Positions 2,853 through 13,984 of a stretch of DNA of 64,000 nucleotides are shown here, one piece after another. The stretch's first letter is position 1, and each line of letters starts with the position of its first letter. Below the pieces are notes generated by a model. It was not told where the DNA came from. It searched no databases and saw only the letters and a list, made by a program, of their open reading frames with translations. Source of the DNA: Gemmatimonadota bacterium. Its GTDB lineage: Bacteria; Gemmatimonadota; Gemmatimonadetes; Gemmatimonadales; GWC2-71-9. Where the stretch lies: assembly GCA_003169895.1 (NCBI GenBank), contig PNAE01000007.1:1655978-1719977 (forward strand), given 5' to 3'. A program made the translations under genes and the position numbers.

Positions 2853-4823
2853 TCACCCCACTGGCGCGGCGACGGTGACCGCCGCCTGGCCCGCCGATAT
2901 CGGCCAGCGCAAGATGACCGCGGTTCCCTGGACCATGCGTTCGAATCCTTTCTCGCTCTTCGCCACCGTCTCGATGGCGTACTCCCACCGTTCGGCGCCC
3001 GGCGCCTCGATCGTCAGCGGGGCGGAGAACGAAAGCTCGGTGCTGAACCAGGAATCCGCGGGGAAGTGGGCGGGGTTCCAGCGCCAGGTCGCGGCGATGA
3101 CGCCAGGCTCGACATGAAGCGATTTCTCGATGTCCTCGCAGCGGAAGTGCAGGTCGACCTGGGCGTCCACGACGTGCCAATCGGCCGTCATTTGCTGGCC
3201 TGCCCATGACCGCGCGACCAGCACACTCGCACGGACGAAATCGTCCCGGATGGTGTCCGGGGCCAGGATGCGATCAACGAACAGGCCACGCGGCTCGATG
3301 TCCACTGGGGGAACGTCCGCGAGCTGGGTTTCGAGATCGTGGATCGATGGTGCGCCGCCAGCATCGCCGTGAGTTTCATCGGTGCCGTGGTCAGATGTCG
3401 TCGATTGCGCCTCCCCCTGCTCCCCTCGCGGCCCGCCCTGGTCCCTGAGGCCAAGGACTTCGTGATACGACTCGCGGTGTCGAGCGAGCACGTTAAGCAG
3501 GTTCTCGCGACGTGCCAGGTCGAGCCAGACTTCCACCATGGCGCCGCGCGCGGGCGCGATCAAGATGCTCGCATTGGGCGACCGGATCCAGATTTCATCG
3601 CGGCCGTCGGCATCAACGTCCCACGACTCGACGCCGGGCGGCTTGCCGTACTGGAGCACCGATTCGGCTTCGGCGAGGTTGCTCCACACCGTGCCACGCA
3701 GAAACGGGAGGTACAATCCGCCGAACACGCCGTGCCAGTACGCATCGTTGCATTGGGCTCGCCCGATCGCCCGGCGCGCCGCCGCCGGGTCGCCTTGTTC
3801 CCGGCACTGCGCGGACAGCGCCAGCATCACCTTGTGCATCCGGTTGCTCTCGGGATACTTGACCAGGAAGTGGCGCCAGTGACCGCCGCGCAACAGGCTG
3901 CCCTCGACGCCATCGAGTCGCGCCCCATCCCATTCACGCTCGAGGCGCAGCAGCGCGCGCGCCGGCTCGAACGGCAGAGCCCATCCTTCCATTTCGCGAT
4001 AGGACGCCGACGGCAGGTACGCCAGGCTCGTCGGCGCCGTTGCGGTGAGTGCGTCCTCGAACCGGGAGAGCCGCACCTCGTCGGTGTCCCGCAGCTCGCG
4101 CATCGTGCCCAGGAAGGCTTCGAGCCAACCCTCCTCGTACAGCCATTTCCGGGTGCCAGGCCAGCCGCCGAACTTTTCGCCGTCGTCGCCGAGTATGGCG
4201 AGCTCACGGCCGGCAGCGCGCAGGGTGCGGAAATAGTTGGCGAGTTCCGCCGGCGGACGGAAGGGAACGAGGTAGCGGAGCTTCTCGTCGATCGGAAATA
4301 CTGCGACGCGATGTCCGCCCGCTTCGGTAACGAAGTGGGCGTGGAGCTGCTCGTTGGCGAATCCCGACACGCGAAAATGCCGGTCATCCACCAGCACGAA
4401 GCGCACGCCAGCGGGGGCAAGCTCCTCCGGCAGGGTCGGCTCCCAGACGCGTTCGGTGAGCCAGAGCCCGCGCGCATCGACACCGAAGCGCGACCGGATC
4501 CGGTCGCGATGGCGCAGCACCTGCTCCAGGCGGTCCTCGCGCGACAGCACGGCGAGAATTGGCTCATCGTGTCCGGCGGCGAGCAGCTCCAGGCGTTGGG
4601 CCGCGGCGTGCTCGCCGATTTCATCGACGAAGCGTGGTGCATGGGCATCCAGCCATTCGAGGAGCGGGCCTGAGATGTGCAGCGCCACCGGCCACAGCTC
4701 GCCGGCCATGAAGCCACGCAGCAGGGGGCGGTATACGTGTTCGAGATGCTCCTCAAATACGGAGTCGAAGTTGCCCCATGGCTGGTGGAGGTGCAGCGCG
4801 AAGCAGAAGCGGAGCGAGCGCAT
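2853..4823 (-). CDS. GH57 4-alpha-glucanotransferase/amylase-like enzyme
   Basis: Glycoside hydrolase family 57 protein of 656 residues, of the Thermococcus litoralis 4-alpha-glucanotransferase type (GH57 barrel, then DUF1925/DUF1926-like beta domains). It probably cleaves or transfers alpha-1,4-glucan chains in the cytoplasm; there is no signal peptide. The N-terminal FALHLHQPWGNFD is the family start. The nucleophile is predicted as Glu124 in LTERVWEP and the acid/base as Asp214 in LGDDGEKFGGWPG, both at positions matching the characterised enzyme. It is the last gene of the alpha-glucan operon, 24 nt after the DUF3536 protein. Whether it acts as transferase or hydrolase cannot be told from sequence. 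Confidence 0.88.
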   Translation of the reverse strand: MRSLRFCFALHLHQPWGNFDSVFEEHLEHVYRPLLRGFMAGELWPVALHISGPLLEWLDAHAPRFVDEIGEHAAAQRLELLAAGHDEPILAVLSREDRLEQVLRHRDRIRSRFGVDARGLWLTERVWEPTLPEELAPAGVRFVLVDDRHFRVSGFANEQLHAHFVTEAGGHRVAVFPIDEKLRYLVPFRPPAELANYFRTLRAAGRELAILGDDGEKFGGWPGTRKWLYEEGWLEAFLGTMRELRDTDEVRLSRFEDALTATAPTSLAYLPSASYREMEGWALPFEPARALLRLEREWDGARLDGVEGSLLRGGHWRHFLVKYPESNRMHKVMLALSAQCREQGDPAAARRAIGRAQCNDAYWHGVFGGLYLPFLRGTVWSNLAEAESVLQYGKPPGVESWDVDADGRDEIWIRSPNASILIAPARGAMVEVWLDLARRENLLNVLARHRESYHEVLGLRDQGGPRGEQGEAQSTTSDHGTDETHGDAGGAPSIHDLETQLADVPPVDIEPRGLFVDRILAPDTIRDDFVRASVLVARSWAGQQMTADWHVVDAQVDLHFRCEDIEKSLHVEPGVIAATWRWNPAHFPADSWFSTELSFSAPLTIEAPGAERWEYAIETVAKSEKGFERMVQGTAVILRWPISAGQAAVTVAAPVG

Positions 4824-4847
4824 CGCGGTCAGTGGTGTGCCGGGAAC

Positions 4848-6818
4848 TCAGGATGTCCGATCAAGTGCCACTCCAAACCGTTCGGCCAGCGACTCTCGCA
4901 TGTGCGAGGCCGGCTGGGCAGCCAGTCGCAGGAATGCGATCGCTCGGGCGTCATCGGCCGGCTTCAGGTTGTCGAGATCGAACAGATCCAGCGCGCCTTG
5001 GAGCACGATGCCGGCGTCGTCCAGGCCGTCGCGGTCGATCAGGCGCCACGCGCCGTCGAGTGCGCGGACTCGCACCGTCGGTGGATCGAGCAGCCCGGCA
5101 CGCAGCGCCGCCGTGTCGGCCGCAGCCAGTGCGGCGTCGTAGATCATCGGCGTCGCGATCTCGCGGAGTGCCTGCCGGACCGGTTCCGGGTAGTCGGCGA
5201 TCCCGACGACCAGCGTGGCGCCCGCCGGGAGCGCGCGCACCTGGGTACGAATCGCCAGGACACCGATGGTGACCGGTTCGGCGCGCCAGCGGCACGTGCG
5301 GCCGGTGCGAACATGCTGTACGGTGATGTCGTCGCCGTCGACACGCCAGTGATGCGCGGGCATCACGATGTCATCAAGGGCGTCCGGCGACAGCTCGCGC
5401 AGCGCGGCAAGTCCCGCCGCAAGTCGCGCCGGTCCATCCGCGTCAGGGAGGACGTCGCGGTGCCAGATCTCCGCGCCGTTTCCCTTGGCGGGATCATTAC
5501 TCCATGCGTGAGCAAGCGCGGCGACGAGCGCCGGTTCGAGGCGCGCCCGCTCGGCGGCGGGCAACAGATCGAGCGCGCGTGCGGCGTGGCGCAGGACGAT
5601 GCGCGGTTCCAGCCGGCCGAGGTCGTCGAAGAACCAGGCGCACGAGGTGAACATCGCGAGCACGTTCCGTTCGACCTCGAGCAGCCGGCGCGCATCGGGG
5701 GGCAACTGCGGTGCGCCACCGAGATCGGGTCCGGCGACATCCCGCGCGATCCAGATATCGCCCGCCGCGGAGGGCCACAGGCGCTGCGCCACCTCAGTGA
5801 TACTCACGGCCAGCGCCTCCAACCCATCGCGTAGCGGGGCGCGCCACGCCTGTGATGTTCCGGGCTCGACTCGGCAGCCGCATTCCCGCCGCCACCGGTC
5901 CACACCGTGTGGACAGCTCCAGGAACTCGGGCCCACGATCGTCACGTCATGTACCGGCGGGCAGGCATCGAGAGTCGCGGCGAAGTTGGTCAGCGTGGCA
6001 TCGTCGCGTCGGTGGAGCCGGTCGATCAGCGCCGCGAGCGCGAGGTCGCCAAACCGATGATGATGACCGAAGGTCTCACCGTCGGTCGCCAGTGAAACGA
6101 CGCTGGGAGCGCCATCGTCCGCGACGGGGAACGCCGTGAGGCTCGCTTCCCAGCGCGTCGCGTCTTCGAGCGCGTCGCCGAAGGCGACCTGATGAGCCGA
6201 CGGGCCGTCGTAGGCAAAGATGGCGAGTTCACGGCTGCCGGGTCCTCGCCAGCGCCCGGGCCGGCCGAACGGCGGTACCCCGCTTACCTGATTCGGCGCC
6301 AGCACCGTCAGGCGAACGCCCTCATCGACGAGCACGGCCAGCGTTTCGTCGTCGACGGCGGTCTCCGGCAGCCACATGCCGTCGGGCTCCCGGCCAAACC
6401 GGGTGCGGAAATCCCGGATGCCCCACCGGACTTCGGTCACCTTGTCCCGCCGCGACATGAGCGGGAGAATGACGTGGTGGTATGGCATCGCCATGGCGTT
6501 GCCGGCGCCGAGGCGCACGCGGGACTCGCGATCGCCGGCGACAATTGCGTCGCATACGTCGGGCGCGTGATCGTCCAGCCAGCGAAACAGCGTCGGACCG
6601 ACATCGAACGAGCACCATGCATACGCGTTGATGACCCGGAGGATGCGGCCGCGTTCATCGACGACCTGCCCGCGTGCGAGCGGCCGGTAGCATTCGGTGG
6701 TGATCCGTTCGTTCCAGTCATGGTCCGGCGTGGCACTCAACTCGCGCGGAACGAGCTCCAGCCACGAATCCTCGCGCGGCGGCTGATAACAGTGGGCGTG
6801 AATGATGACGTTACGCAT
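4848..6818 (-). CDS. GH57 family protein with DUF3536
   Basis: A second GH57-type protein, 656 residues. The N-terminal IIHAHCYQPPREDSW and the predicted catalytic Glu152 (MWLPETAVD) and Asp246 (SLATDGETFGHHH) identify the DUF3536 branch of GH57. A Cys-containing segment (WSCPHGVDRWRRECGC) follows, as in that branch. As far as I know this branch has no firm biochemical assignment; the position between branching enzyme and glucanotransferase points to a glycogen or maltodextrin substrate. There is no signal peptide. It starts 81 nt after the branching enzyme stop. Confidence 0.85.
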   Translation of the reverse strand: MRNVIIHAHCYQPPREDSWLELVPRELSATPDHDWNERITTECYRPLARGQVVDERGRILRVINAYAWCSFDVGPTLFRWLDDHAPDVCDAIVAGDRESRVRLGAGNAMAMPYHHVILPLMSRRDKVTEVRWGIRDFRTRFGREPDGMWLPETAVDDETLAVLVDEGVRLTVLAPNQVSGVPPFGRPGRWRGPGSRELAIFAYDGPSAHQVAFGDALEDATRWEASLTAFPVADDGAPSVVSLATDGETFGHHHRFGDLALAALIDRLHRRDDATLTNFAATLDACPPVHDVTIVGPSSWSCPHGVDRWRRECGCRVEPGTSQAWRAPLRDGLEALAVSITEVAQRLWPSAAGDIWIARDVAGPDLGGAPQLPPDARRLLEVERNVLAMFTSCAWFFDDLGRLEPRIVLRHAARALDLLPAAERARLEPALVAALAHAWSNDPAKGNGAEIWHRDVLPDADGPARLAAGLAALRELSPDALDDIVMPAHHWRVDGDDITVQHVRTGRTCRWRAEPVTIGVLAIRTQVRALPAGATLVVGIADYPEPVRQALREIATPMIYDAALAAADTAALRAGLLDPPTVRVRALDGAWRLIDRDGLDDAGIVLQGALDLFDLDNLKPADDARAIAFLRLAAQPASHMRESLAERFGVALDRTS

Positions 6819-6899
6819 GGCTCACGCGGCCAGCAGGCGCGCGAGGCACGAGCCGATCGGGTCCGGCCTGCGGCCTCGGTGGCGACGCGCCCGGATCAT

Positions 6900-8546
6900 C
6901 TACGAAGCCGCCACGTCGGACGCCGCCGCGATTGCGCCGATCAGGTCCGGAAACGGTCCGTCGATCAGTTCAAGTTCCGCCGCGTGCGCGGCGCCCGCGG
7001 CGAGATCGGACGTCGAGCTTTCGAGAAACGGGAGCAGCGCTTCCAGGGCGTCGCAATGCTCGTTGAACCGCTTGGTCGCGTAGTCGCCGGCGGCGCCGGT
7101 GGAGATGATGAATTGCCAATCGGATGACTGCGCCAGGAGCAACTCGCGTCCGGCCTGCTCCAGCACTGGCCGGGCGTCCCACCGCCGCATCGCCGCAGGC
7201 ACCGCATTCCAGAACCGATCTTCCAGCGGCCACAGGCGTCGCCATGTCCACTCGGTTTCGGGGTTGAGCCACATCGAGAAATCGCCGTCCTTGCCCCACG
7301 ATCCCGCGCCGAGGCGCAGCGACAGGTCGGGCGGGGCTTCGGCAAGCGCGGCGCCGGCGGTCATGGGCCGCGTCATCCCGACAACCGCCATGTCCTGATA
7401 CAGGTACTTCAGGAACGCGATGCCCTCGAACCACCAGTGGCCGAACAGTTCGGTATCGAACGGCGCGATGATCGCATGATCACCGGGATCGCCGTGGGTT
7501 TCGTCGAGCAGTGTCTGGAAGTGCGCCGCGTGGCTCATCGCGGCCTCCCGCGCCGCCGCCGGCACGTACGGCTGCTTGTCGGCGAGATCCGCGGCGGGAT
7601 CGGTCACCGACCAGTACTTGAGCCCGCCGGGATGCCGGATCTTGTGGAACTCGAGATACCGCCCGTCGCCGGGATAGCCGCCATGACGACTCCACACCTG
7701 CTCCGTCGCTTTTGGGTCGCGAACCAGCGCGTAGATCGGCCGGCCGCGTGACTCGTTGCCCACGCGATAACCGCGATAGGGCGAACGCTTGCGTTGCTTC
7801 GCCAGGCGTCGTTGCGTCTTGCCGCTGTACGGATCGAACGTCGCGCCGGCGTCGACAATCTGCGCGTCGACAAAGAACCACTGAAAGCCGGCATGACGCA
7901 GGTGGTCTTCGATCCCGCTGCGGATGCGACCGTGCGCGGCGCCGGGCAGCGGCTGCCATATGCCGCGCGGCCGATAGGCGCATTCCGGGACCCAGCAACC
8001 GCGGGGCAGGTCGCCGAAGTGGCGGGCGTGTTCCGCGCGCCCGACGAGCAACTGAAAGCGGATGCTTTCGTCGCGGGCGAGCAAGGGCAGGAATCCGTGC
8101 GTCGCCGCCGACGAGATCAGTTCGATGCGGCCGGCGTCCGCGTGGCGGCGAAACGCGGCGATCAGGTCCTTCCCGATTCGCAGCCAGGTCACCTGCAACG
8201 TGCGCACATGCGCGCGCCAGAAGTCCACCAGCGGAAGGAGGTGCCCATCGCCGGTGGCCCGGAGTGACTCGGGCGCTTCGTCGAGCGTCGCCAACCGGTG
8301 CGCGAAGTAGATGTCGAGTTCGTCCCGAAACGACGGGTGCGCGAACTGCGCCACCAGGATGGGCGTGATGCCGATGGTCAGCGGCGGCGGGACATCCTCC
8401 TGCTCCAGCTCGTCGAGCATCGCGATGAGCGGCAGGTAGCTGTCGAGCGCAGCTTCGCAGATCCAGTCGGAGCCATGCGGCCAGCGACCGTGATGGAGCA
8501 CCCAGGGGAGGTGACTGTGCAGGGTGAGGACAAAGCGGAGGCTCAC
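6900..8546 (-). CDS. GH57 1,4-alpha-glucan branching enzyme
   Basis: Transfers alpha-1,4 chains to make alpha-1,6 branches in glycogen. 548 residues, GH57 catalytic domain followed by the DUF1957-type helical domain. Key residues: His10 and His12 in LTLHSHLPWV, predicted nucleophile Glu188 in CWVPECAYRPRG and acid Asp364 in APFDTELFGHWWFEG, the hallmark pair of the Thermus/Thermococcus enzymes. The start is GTG at 8546, the only one that gives the family N-terminus SLRFVLTLHSHLPW; it overlaps the glgA stop as GTGA, so translation is coupled. It replaces the usual GH13 GlgB, which is absent from this operon. Confidence 0.92.
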   Translation of the reverse strand: MSLRFVLTLHSHLPWVLHHGRWPHGSDWICEAALDSYLPLIAMLDELEQEDVPPPLTIGITPILVAQFAHPSFRDELDIYFAHRLATLDEAPESLRATGDGHLLPLVDFWRAHVRTLQVTWLRIGKDLIAAFRRHADAGRIELISSAATHGFLPLLARDESIRFQLLVGRAEHARHFGDLPRGCWVPECAYRPRGIWQPLPGAAHGRIRSGIEDHLRHAGFQWFFVDAQIVDAGATFDPYSGKTQRRLAKQRKRSPYRGYRVGNESRGRPIYALVRDPKATEQVWSRHGGYPGDGRYLEFHKIRHPGGLKYWSVTDPAADLADKQPYVPAAAREAAMSHAAHFQTLLDETHGDPGDHAIIAPFDTELFGHWWFEGIAFLKYLYQDMAVVGMTRPMTAGAALAEAPPDLSLRLGAGSWGKDGDFSMWLNPETEWTWRRLWPLEDRFWNAVPAAMRRWDARPVLEQAGRELLLAQSSDWQFIISTGAAGDYATKRFNEHCDALEALLPFLESSTSDLAAGAAHAAELELIDGPFPDLIGAIAAASDVAAS

Positions 8547-10039
8547 CCTGCGCGCCTCGCTGCCAGTGCGATGGCACGCTCGTAGATCTCGACATAGCGT
8601 TCGGCGGCGCGGTCCCAGCCAAATTCGCGTGACATGCCCTCGCGCTGCATTTCGCGCCATGCCTTGGTCGACCGATGCTCGGTCATCGCCCGCCAGATGC
8701 CGCCGACGAGCGCGCGCTCGTCGAACCCCTCGAACAGGAAGCCGGTGAGGCCGTCGTCGATGGTGTCGGCGAGGCCTCCGACGCGGCGCGCGACCGGGAC
8801 CGTGCCATAGCGTTGCGCGCGCATCTGGGTCAGCCCGCAGGGCTCGTACTGCGAGGGCATCAGGTAGAGATCGGCGCCGGCGATGACGACGTGCTCGAGC
8901 GGATCGGAGAACGTCGTTTCGACGCCGACGCGGTTCGGCAGGGCAGTGTGCAACGCGCGCACGGCGTCTTCGAGTCGCTTGTCGCCGCTGCCGAGGAAGA
9001 CGTACTGCGCCGCAAAATGGAACAGCGCCGTGTTGTGCACGACGATGTCAAGCCCTTTCTGGGTCGCCATCCGGCCAATGAACGCGATGACGGGTACGAA
9101 CGGATTGTCCGGAAGGCCGAATCGCCGTTGGATGTCCGCCTTGCAGGCGCGCTTGCCATCGAGATGATCCGCCGAGAACCGCGCGGCGATGTAGGGGTCG
9201 GTCGCAGGATTCCAGACGCTCTGGTCGATGCCGTTGAGTACGCCGGTGAACCGGTTGCCCATCAACTCGTAGACGTCGTGGAGGCCGAACCCGCCGGCCG
9301 GTGTCCGCAATTCGTGGGCATGCGTGGGACTCACCGTCGTGGCCATGTCGGTGTGCGTCAGCCCGCCCTTGAGATAGTTCGTCTTCCCGTACCATTCGAG
9401 CTTGTCAGGCGTCCACACATCCCAGGGCAGGCCGATCTCGGGGATAATCTCGCGGCCGAAGTGTCCCTGATATCCGCCGTTGTGCACCGAAAGGACGACG
9501 GGAATGCGGCGATACCAGGAATGTTCCCTCCACCAGTTGTGGAGATACACCGGTGCCAGCGCCGCGTGCCAGTCGTGCGCATGCAACAGCACCGGGCCAC
9601 CGGTCACGAGCGGCAACGCGGCAACCGAAGCGGCGGCAAAGGCGGCGAAGCGCAGGTAGTTGTCGGGATAGTCGGCGCCCCGCTCGCCATAGAGGCCATC
9701 GCGGCCGAAGAAGCCGTCGTGCTCGAGAAAACAGGTCGGCGTTTCCGAGGCCGGGTCCAGTTCGCGCCAGAGCCGGAAGGTCTCCGCGCGGGGGCCGAAT
9801 CGCAGTGTGAACGGATCGCCGGCGGCTTCGAGACGGCGGGTGTGCCGTCGCGCGGCGCGATACAACGGCACGATCGCCATCGTCCTGAGCCCCGAACGGT
9901 GCTGGTCGCGATGCAGGCCCCACGCCGCTTCGGCCAGGCCTCCCGTGCGCGCATACGGATAGTACTCTGCCGCGAGGTGAACGATCGTGGGTGCCTCACC
10001 CGCGATGGTCGGGAGCGTGAACCGGCGCTGCGCGTTCAT
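8543..10039 (-). CDS. glgA: glycogen synthase, GT5
   Basis: Elongates alpha-1,4-glucan from a nucleotide-glucose donor. 498 residues with the two Rossmann halves of GT5: PTIVHLAAEYYPYARTGGLAEA at the N-terminus contains the donor loop, HAHDWHAAL, FSVHNGGYQGHF-like (LSVHNGGYQGHF), NGIDQSVWNPATD, IGRMATQKGLDI, and the C-terminal MPSQYEPCGLTQMRA. The donor-binding K-x-GGL motif reads RTGGL, so Lys is replaced by Arg. The start is ATG at 10039, 4 nt after the phosphorylase stop with GAGG just upstream; an in-frame TTG 30 nt earlier is less likely. No glgC lies in the operon, so the donor (ADP- or UDP-glucose) is open. Confidence 0.93.
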   Translation of the reverse strand: MNAQRRFTLPTIAGEAPTIVHLAAEYYPYARTGGLAEAAWGLHRDQHRSGLRTMAIVPLYRAARRHTRRLEAAGDPFTLRFGPRAETFRLWRELDPASETPTCFLEHDGFFGRDGLYGERGADYPDNYLRFAAFAAASVAALPLVTGGPVLLHAHDWHAALAPVYLHNWWREHSWYRRIPVVLSVHNGGYQGHFGREIIPEIGLPWDVWTPDKLEWYGKTNYLKGGLTHTDMATTVSPTHAHELRTPAGGFGLHDVYELMGNRFTGVLNGIDQSVWNPATDPYIAARFSADHLDGKRACKADIQRRFGLPDNPFVPVIAFIGRMATQKGLDIVVHNTALFHFAAQYVFLGSGDKRLEDAVRALHTALPNRVGVETTFSDPLEHVVIAGADLYLMPSQYEPCGLTQMRAQRYGTVPVARRVGGLADTIDDGLTGFLFEGFDERALVGGIWRAMTEHRSTKAWREMQREGMSREFGWDRAAERYVEIYERAIALAARRAG

Positions 10040-10043
10040 GACC

Positions 10044-12206
10044 TCATCCGAGCGGAGGATCATCCACAAACGGATCGCCGCGGAGGATCGGCGCGTAGTA
10101 ACGGTCGGCGTAATCCTGCATCATGCGGCGGGCGGTAAAGTGCCGGCCGGCGACCCGGATCGATTCCTTCATGCGCTGCACCCACCGTCGCGGAATCCCC
10201 TGGTCGTCCTGGTCGTACCAGAGCGGCACCACGTCCTTTTCGAGCAATTGATAGAGATGCTCGGCATCGGCGGCGTCGGCGTCTTCGCTCGGTTGCGCCT
10301 TGGGAATCGCCCAGCCGTTCTTGCCGTTGAATCCTTCTTCCCACCACCCATCGAGCGTGCTGAGTTGCGGCACGCCGTTGAGGGCGGCCTTCATCCCGCT
10401 GGTGCCCGATGCCTCGAATGGCACGCGTGGCACGTTGAGCCAGAGGTCGACGCCCTGAACCAGCAAGTGGGCGAGGTGCATGTCGTAATCTTCGAGAAAC
10501 GCGACCCGCCCCTCGAACATGGGATCGCGCGCATAGTGATACAACGTTTGCAGGATTTCCTTGCCGGGCGTGTCCTGCGGATGCGCCTTGCCGGCGATGA
10601 TCAGCTGCACCGGCCGCTGGGTATCGGTGACGATCAGGCGCAGCCGCTCGATGTCGCGAAACAGCAGGTCGGCGCGCTTGTACGTGGCGAACCGCCGGGC
10701 GAAGCCGATGGTGAACACCCTGGGATCGAGCAACGTTCCGGACGCTACGACCTGGGCGGCCTCGCTCCATTCGTCGCGCCAGCGCCGCCGCGCTTCTTCG
10801 CGCAGGTAGCGCAACAGCATCCGCTTGAGCTCGTCGTGGGTGAACCACACGGCGCGTGCGTCGAGACCGAGGACGGCATCCCAGATCTCCGGGTCGTCGA
10901 GCCGGAAGCCCCAGTCGTCGCCGAGATGGTAGTCGAGCAGCCGCATGATCGGATTGGCCATCCAGGTGGCGAGGTGTACCCCGTTCGTCACGGCGCCGAT
11001 GGGAACCTGCTCGATGGGACGCTCACTCCAGAGGTCGCTCCACAACTGACGGGACACGATGCCATGCCGCTTTGCCACGCCGTTGACGTGGCCGGCGAGG
11101 CGGATCGCGAGCACCGTCATCTGGAACCCGCGGGCCTCATGTTGCGGATGCACCCCAAGGGTGACGGCGCGTTCGGCGGCCGCGCCGAAATCCTCCAGGT
11201 ATGCCATCCCGGCGCACTCGGCGACCTGGCCGACGTCGAAGGCGTCGTGGCCGGCCGGCACCGGCGTGTGAGTCGTGAAGATCGATGTCCGCCGCACCTC
11301 GTTAATCGCGTCGCTCATCGCCGTGCCCGAGCCGACCAGCTCACGCAATCTCTCGAGCATCATGAACGCCGCGTGGCCTTCGTTGGCGTGCCAGACCGCC
11401 GGGTTGATCCCGAGCGCGCGCAACACCCGCACCCCCCCGGTGCCCAGGATCCATTCCTGCCGTAGCCGCATCTCGGCGCCGCCGGAGTAGAGCTTGCTCG
11501 TGAGGCCCCGATCCGCCTCGTCGTTGACATCGAGGTCGGTGTCGAGCAGGTAGAGCGGGGCGCGACCGGCCGTCAGGGTCCAGGCGCCAATGTGTACCGC
11601 GCGGCCGAATGTATTCAGCACGGTCACCCACGGCGCGTCGTCCGGTCCGAGGAGCGGGACCAGCGGCGTCTGGTCCAGGTCGATTTCGTCGTCGGAATCC
11701 TCCTGCCATCCGTCAGGCGTGATCCGCTGGTCGAAGTAGCCTTTCTTGTAGAAGAGCCCCACGCCGACGAACGGCACGGCGAGATCCGACGCCGACTTGC
11801 AGTGGTCGCCGGCCAGCACGCCCAGGCCGCCGGAGTAGATCGGCACGGATGCGTGCAACCCGAATTCGGCACAGAAGTACGCGACCGGCCGGTCGACGCC
11901 GATCTCGGAGTAGTGCTCTCGGAACCAGCCGCTGGTGGTCGAGCGTTCGCGCGAGAACCAGTCCATCACCTCGTCATAGTGCGAGCAGAAATCGGCGTCA
12001 TGCGCCAGCGCTTCCAGGCGCTCTGGTGCGGCATCCCGGAGCACGACAATGGGGTTGTGATGCGAGTGACGCCAGAGCGGCTCGTCGATGCGGCGGAACA
12101 GGGCGCGGGCCTGGCGGTGCCAGCTCCAGGCAAGGTTGACTGCGAGCGCGGCCAGTCCCTCCAGACGGGATGGCAGCGCCGGAATCTTGGCGCGCGACAG
12201 CGTCAT
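10044..12206 (-). CDS. glgP: alpha-glucan phosphorylase, GT35
   Basis: Releases glucose-1-phosphate from glycogen or maltodextrin. 720 residues of the short bacterial and archaeal type: a DUF3417-like N-terminal domain (GLAALAVNLAWSWH), then the phosphorylase fold. The pyridoxal-phosphate Lys is predicted at about residue 606 in EASGTSGMKAALNG; the phosphate-binding region FAEFGLHASVPIYSGGLGVLAGDH is also seen in parts. It is the first gene of the leftward operon, 101 nt from ettA. The upstream gap has no promoter I can defend. Confidence 0.94.
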   Translation of the reverse strand: MTLSRAKIPALPSRLEGLAALAVNLAWSWHRQARALFRRIDEPLWRHSHHNPIVVLRDAAPERLEALAHDADFCSHYDEVMDWFSRERSTTSGWFREHYSEIGVDRPVAYFCAEFGLHASVPIYSGGLGVLAGDHCKSASDLAVPFVGVGLFYKKGYFDQRITPDGWQEDSDDEIDLDQTPLVPLLGPDDAPWVTVLNTFGRAVHIGAWTLTAGRAPLYLLDTDLDVNDEADRGLTSKLYSGGAEMRLRQEWILGTGGVRVLRALGINPAVWHANEGHAAFMMLERLRELVGSGTAMSDAINEVRRTSIFTTHTPVPAGHDAFDVGQVAECAGMAYLEDFGAAAERAVTLGVHPQHEARGFQMTVLAIRLAGHVNGVAKRHGIVSRQLWSDLWSERPIEQVPIGAVTNGVHLATWMANPIMRLLDYHLGDDWGFRLDDPEIWDAVLGLDARAVWFTHDELKRMLLRYLREEARRRWRDEWSEAAQVVASGTLLDPRVFTIGFARRFATYKRADLLFRDIERLRLIVTDTQRPVQLIIAGKAHPQDTPGKEILQTLYHYARDPMFEGRVAFLEDYDMHLAHLLVQGVDLWLNVPRVPFEASGTSGMKAALNGVPQLSTLDGWWEEGFNGKNGWAIPKAQPSEDADAADAEHLYQLLEKDVVPLWYDQDDQGIPRRWVQRMKESIRVAGRHFTARRMMQDYADRYYAPILRGDPFVDDPPLG

Positions 12207-12307: not shown

Positions 12308-13984
<1,677 letters not shown>

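Follow-up and report, generated by a model that had tools for sequence, protein, structure and literature searches.

A GH57-based glycogen operon of Gemmatimonadota with a DUF3536 protein proposed in the place of the debranching enzyme GlgX

The window is a stretch of 64,000 nucleotides from a Gemmatimonadota bacterium (GenBank assembly GCA_003169895.1, contig PNAE01000007.1). It contains five consecutive open reading frames (ORFs) on the minus strand at positions 2853–12206, in the transcription order glgP, glgA, branching enzyme, DUF3536 protein and 4-alpha-glucanotransferase, the last three belonging to glycoside hydrolase family 57 (GH57). Together they form a glycogen operon that is built on GH57 enzymes and conserved in the phylum. 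We lean towards the reading that the DUF3536 enzyme performs the glycogen-debranching step of GlgX within this self-contained operon; the soil-type bacterium appears to make and degrade glycogen by a compact five-gene set, with the DUF3536 protein in the place of the usual debranching enzyme. An initial annotation of the window had described five such genes on one strand, and all ORFs were found at the same coordinates, with their families confirmed by profiles (Table 1).

The E. coli glgBXCAP operon groups synthesis, branching, debranching and phosphorolysis. The window operon also groups synthesis, branching, proposed debranching and phosphorolysis, but it has no GlgC, and its branching enzyme, proposed debrancher and transferase are all GH57 proteins. 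What we infer are the reactions, in particular alpha-1,6 hydrolysis by the DUF3536 protein, and the sugar-nucleotide donor. GlgA would extend alpha-1,4 chains, in which the GH57 branching enzyme would make alpha-1,6 branches. Phosphorolysis by GlgP would shorten the outer chains to stubs, and the DUF3536 enzyme would remove these by alpha-1,6 hydrolysis, taking the place of GlgX; perhaps it also cuts some alpha-1,4 bonds, as a GH57 amylopullulanase does. Short maltodextrins set free in this way would be rejoined by the GH57 4-alpha-glucanotransferase to give chains on which GlgP can act.

The DUF3536 protein matches PF12055 with 114.1 bits (cut-off 25) and PF03065 with 52.7 bits. The PF12055 match covers only profile positions 3–40 (approximately) and 74–170 of 284, the protein is therefore C-terminally divergent. 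Its Pfam matches are limited to DUF3536 and GH57, with no GH13 catalytic domain. Glu152 and Asp246, which the initial annotation had described as intact, are both present. A further motif, Cys302-x-His304 followed by Cys313-x-Cys315, is adjoined by a conserved Trp-Ser. The motif was invariant in 24 of 24 sequences and then in all 38 of alignment A2; across 60 loci Cys302, His304 and Cys313 are kept in all 60 and Cys315 in 59. It is possibly a metal or structural site. Relatives are numerous: GTDB species genomes contain at least 583 loci that encode one.

In the window genome (3.42 Mb, 98.24% complete) profile searches, which did not extend to GH15, GH31 or GH63, found neither GlgX (best match 54 bits against 640.9 for TIGR02100) nor GDE_C, nor a pullulanase (TIGR02104, 1e-30), nor a GH13 GlgB (TIGR01515, 1e-60). 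GlgC was not found genome-wide either; the best match to its profile (33.8 bits, cut-off 424.9) is a generic sugar nucleotidyltransferase. The lack of GlgB, GlgX and GlgC had been remarked for the operon and is thus extended to the genome, and the full GH13 glycogen set whose presence elsewhere in the genome would have spoken against the initial annotation did not appear in the searches (GlgC, GlgX, GDE_C, GlgB, TIGR02104). A genome that has a branching enzyme and lacks GlgX, GDE_C, a TIGR02104 pullulanase and GH13 GlgB argues for placing the DUF3536 protein at the GlgX step. The genome has three PF03065 places, all within the operon. The remark that GH13 is absent is correct for the operon and the glycogen set but not for the genome as a whole, which has three PF00128 places at 171–176 kb of contig C6, together with starch-uptake genes.

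Contig C6 also carries GH97, SusC/SusD-like (SusD- and TonB-receptor-like) and major facilitator superfamily (MFS) genes, and a GH77 protein (MalQ) at 152–154 kb with an MFS transporter. This gene set reads as one for starch uptake. Within 145–180 kb (L011, L012) the GH13 amylases occur with SusD-/TonB-receptor-like genes about 20 kb from the GH97 and GH77 MalQ genes. A CBM48 match was considered as a sign of a GH13 glycogen set and rejected, as it lies in an isolated ORF of 153 amino acids. GlgA of the operon is of the ADP-glucose type, in a genome without GlgC.

The distribution of the DUF3536 protein was studied in a sample of 200 genomes of the phylum, 71 of which have it. Forty loci fetched from 39 of these 71 comprise seven of a long type (about 800 amino acids; L052, L074–L079) and 33 of a short type, to which the window protein belongs. 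All five genes are present in order in one stretch in 14 of the 33 short-type loci, which indicates that the gene order is more than chance; the other short-type loci are cut by contig ends or have no 4-alpha-glucanotransferase or branching enzyme.

GlgX and the short DUF3536 protein alternate in the 93 sampled genomes that have glgA, 61 with short DUF3536 and 32 without; genomes with glgA and the long type (G142, G186) were counted as without, GlgX fragments were counted as present, and the genomes are not independent. GlgX is found in 6 of the 61 and in 22 of the 32 (Fisher 8e-9). When glycogen debranching enzyme (GDE) and type-I-like pullulanase are included, the counts become 10 of 61 and 28 of 32 (2e-11), and with type II pullulanases 15 of 61 and 28 of 32; pullulanase types were assigned by family scans, that of G054 (type II) by profile match alone. 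Counted by genus, with two mixed genera left out, GlgX occurs in 4 of 28 genera with short DUF3536 and in 14 of 19 without, and GlgX, GDE or type-I-like pullulanase in 7 of 28 and 17 of 19 respectively (1.7e-5).

The clearest case comes from the window's own family, in which six genomes have no DUF3536 and keep the glgA, GH57 branching enzyme and GH57 4-alpha-glucanotransferase genes. In five (G065, G017, G154, G048 and G090) these follow ettA and glgP, and in G008 they stand at a contig end; in all six there is no ORF between the branching enzyme and the transferase. All six have GlgX, which in G048 consists of two fragments below the cut-off and in G090 of two fragments, one over the cut-off (contig fragments). 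Together with the counts above, these operons argue for the DUF3536 protein at the GlgX step. A sister pair of the glgA tree points in the same direction: G124 has DUF3536 and no pullulanase match, whereas G119 has a pullulanase and no DUF3536. Asp246 is lost in only two of 60 DUF3536 proteins (G158, G169), and both genomes have GlgX and GDE, which also argues for the GlgX step. The only genome in which Cys315 is replaced by Asp (G129) has GDE.

The trehalose genes provide another context. The GlgX/TreX glycogen debranching enzyme (TIGR02100) belongs to GH13_11. In a survey across many phyla, of the best 80 of the at least 583 GTDB relatives, TreY or TreZ is near DUF3536 in 21 loci, and GlgX is found in none of these 21 within the stretch examined. 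The order TreZ-DUF3536-TreY occurs, for example, in L143 and L134. Among genomes of the phylum without DUF3536, GlgX adjoins TreZ in 9 of 13 GlgX loci; because this control was built on GlgX loci, the proportion of TreZ clusters with GlgX cannot be read from it. Two genomes with both proteins (G140, G150) have TreZ with GlgX, and their DUF3536 gene stands apart, with MalQ. The TreY/TreZ neighbourhood thus also points to the GlgX step. The window protein resembles GlgX/TreX in its proposed step, in alternating with it in glgA-bearing genomes and in having TreZ as a neighbour in relatives, but GlgX is a GH13 protein and the window protein a GH57 protein without GH13 match; the likeness claimed is one of function only.

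The window protein and a minimal form (L092, 435 amino acids) both modelled well, with a predicted local distance difference test score (pLDDT) of 87.1 and a predicted template modelling score (pTM) of 0.86, and with 93.8 and 0.93, respectively. GH57 amylopullulanases rank first for both models in VIA-align, which argues for the same role. The Aquifex aeolicus amylopullulanase (9k7c/8zyi) aligns with the window model (9k7c_A) with Z 32.8 and 2.5 Å over 334 residues and with L092 with Z 34.4 and 2.3 Å over 326 residues; the Staphylothermus marinus amylopullulanase (7e1y) gives Z 31.3 and 32.9. Lower values are obtained for maltose-forming amylase (29.6 for the window, 30.7 for L092), 4-alpha-glucanotransferase (29.3, 28.9) and branching enzymes and AmyC (28.7–27.9, 28.6–27.3). 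By VIA-align these amylopullulanases are the nearest solved folds, but identity is 15–20% and the DUF3536 set is distinguished by its invariant Cys/His motif. No GH13 chain is among the VIA-align matches listed, which by the tool's own note excludes nothing.

Several observations weigh against a role in debranching. Foldseek E-values place the 4-alpha-glucanotransferase 1k1x first for the DUF3536 model, and a sequence profile places branching enzymes first, the likeness to amylopullulanases is therefore a pointer and not proof. Some other debranching enzyme is present in 15 of the 61 genomes with short DUF3536, none was found in 4 of the 32 genomes without it, and long-type DUF3536 and GlgX occur together in five of six long-only genomes. 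The authors who characterised PoGH57, the one characterised relative, which comes from Pontibacter and which they call a DUF3536 protein, interpret its action as hydrolysis and alpha-1,4-glucanotransfer with a constant number of branches (PMC11206854). PoGH57 was described in 2024 as weakly active on amylose and on maltooctadecaose, and the statement of the initial annotation that DUF3536 has no assigned reaction is therefore out of date. That annotation had also guessed at debranching or chain trimming, and this was right as a pair of alternatives: comparative genomics favours the former, and the PoGH57 authors' own reading favours the latter.

The trimming alternative holds that the DUF3536 protein acts on alpha-1,4 bonds, trimming or disproportionating chains like an alpha-amylase or 4-alpha-glucanotransferase, and that branch points are left to an unrecognised enzyme or unresolved. 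We regard it as rather unlikely. It agrees with the reported properties of PoGH57, which has weak activities of 27.7 mU/mg on amylose and 4.2 mU/mg on maltooctadecaose (MD18, degree of polymerisation (DP) 18), and trims branches above DP6 (PMC11206854). The window protein has DGET in conserved sequence region (CSR) 4, where alpha-amylases are listed with Thr at position 23. However, the alpha-1,4 role is already filled in the operon, where GlgP trims and the GH57 4-alpha-glucanotransferase disproportionates, and this alternative leaves the exchange with GlgX and the place beside TreZ and TreY unexplained. After treatment with branching enzyme, PoGH57 gave more linear DP3 and DP4, and more short and fewer long branches; the branched peak area was lower when PoGH57 and branching enzyme were combined (PMC11206854). 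Debranching and trimming are both compatible with the release of DP3 and DP4 and the drop in the branched peak. In a term search, the paper gave no pullulan, limit-dextrin or amylopectin substrate, and isoamylase and pullulanase appear there as reagents only (PMC11206854); we find that its data neither demonstrate alpha-1,6 cutting nor speak decisively against it. PoGH57 is like the window protein in being a DUF3536 GH57 protein, and its CSR-I (HGHFY) and CSR-IV (ETYGHH) equal the consensus of the relatives' alignment, the window having HAHCY and ETFGHH. It differs in its size (93 kDa), from which it is probably of the long type, and in its GlgE/TreYZ locus (PMC11206854), whereas the window protein, of the short type, is encoded in a glgP-glgA operon.

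Alternatively, the DUF3536 protein might shape glycogen with the branching enzyme, setting branch length or density, and the pattern with GlgX would then reflect a lineage-wide swap of whole glycogen systems and not a shared function. The branching-enzyme gene lies directly upstream of DUF3536 in most short-type loci, and a tree-aware pairs test agrees with such a swap in being not significant. The glgA tree has about 8 changes of DUF3536 and 13 of GlgX. The pairs test found about 6 independent contrasts, with a median p of 0.25; for any debrancher against DUF3536 the pairs were on average opposite in 3.0, the same in 0.1 and without difference in 2.9. The test is in the predicted direction and its power is too low, and it too counts against debranching, as does the fact that the six operons without DUF3536 form one clade of the glgA tree and so perhaps represent one event. 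Those six genomes keep the rest of the operon, including the branching enzyme, and only DUF3536 is missing, however, and DUF3536 is also found with glgA in loci that have a GH13 GlgB as branching enzyme (L086, L111, L151). We consider glycogen shaping improbable.

Alpha-1,6 hydrolysis is a candidate activity of DUF3536 proteins. More broadly, and with slightly less confidence than for the role in this operon, we tentatively propose that DUF3536 GH57 proteins form a separate, unrecognised class of glycogen-debranching enzyme with the Cys/His motif, replacing both GlgX (glycogen operons) and TreX (trehalose clusters) in many bacterial phyla and some archaea. No published report of debranching by DUF3536 was found in searches of open-access literature. 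If the DUF3536 protein does perform the GlgX step, the operon would be a variant of glycogen metabolism arisen by non-orthologous displacement, and the wider family assignment would be the novel part. A concrete function would supply many uncultured lineages with a step now missing from their predicted glycogen and trehalose metabolism, pathway calls that score such genomes as without debranching would be corrected, and starch work would gain a new kind of enzyme. A little-studied but widespread family is given a testable job.

Some relatives have a DUF3536 gene of only about 435–500 amino acids, without the C-terminal part (L049, L050, L051, L058). Recoding of an in-frame TGA was considered for them and rejected: the C-terminal part is absent behind the TGA, the gene ends there and the 4-alpha-glucanotransferase gene starts close after. 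The DUF3536 proteins of L069 (G158) and L264 (G169), from one genus, have neither the catalytic Asp nor Cys393 and are possibly pseudoenzymes.

Table 1. Features of the glycogen operon and its upstream neighbour in the window.
Feature	Positions	Strand	Support or conservation
ettA, ABC-F translational throttle, upstream neighbour (context gene)	12308..13984	-	TIGR03719
glgP, alpha-glucan phosphorylase, TIGR02094 type with N-terminal DUF3417	10044..12206	-	TIGR02094, PF11897, PF00343
glgA, GT5 glycogen synthase	8543..10039	-	TIGR02095; ORF spans 8543-10069
Predicted GH57 glycogen branching enzyme	6900..8546	-	PF03065 + BE_C; ORF 6900-8660
DUF3536 GH57 protein, proposed glycogen-debranching (GlgX-slot) enzyme	4848..6818	-	PF12055, PF03065
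Predicted catalytic nucleophile Glu152 codon	6363..6365	-	E in 59/60 loci, 1 not covered by alignment
Predicted acid/base Asp246 codon	6081..6083	-	D in 58/60 loci, V in 2
Cys302-x-His304 ... Cys313-x-Cys315 motif, possible metal site, family-specific	5874..5915	-	conservation
GH57 4-alpha-glucanotransferase, TLGT-like	2853..4823	-	PF03065, AmyA-A_glucT_m (PF09094), AmyA-gluTrfs_C (PF09095)

The operon genes are assigned by profile matches: glgP scores 764.8 bits (cut-off 191.7), glgA 468.1 bits (cut-off 328.45), and the three GH57 proteins match PF03065 with 126.7, 52.7 and 101.8 bits (cut-off 21.2). GlgA probably starts at the ATG at 10039 and the branching enzyme probably at the GTG at 8546; the latter would overlap the glgA stop (GTGA), which suggests translational coupling. 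The branching enzyme matches Thermus thermophilus TT1467 (PDB 1ufa) with E 1.1e-103 and falls below the cut-offs of the NCBIfam equivalogs for Thermus and Thermococcales (433 against 920 and 396.2 against 1000). It carries both GH57 branching-enzyme fingerprints, HxHLP and ELF(Y)GHW as cited in PMC11206854, in the forms HSHLP and ELFGHW; the DUF3536 protein carries neither. The 4-alpha-glucanotransferase matches Thermococcus litoralis TLGT (PDB 1k1w) with E 1.6e-114 over residues 2–457, and bears DGEKF, with the Lys at CSR-4 position 23 that marks such enzymes. A scan for promoters and terminators gave fewer sites than shuffled sequence and so carries no information on transcript boundaries.

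The upstream ettA gene scores 942 bits against its profile (cut-off 806.75), and an EttA-like ORF also adjoins glgP in L047, L053 and L176–L180. A gene of this kind directly upstream of glgP makes a link between translational energy sensing and energy storage worth a look.

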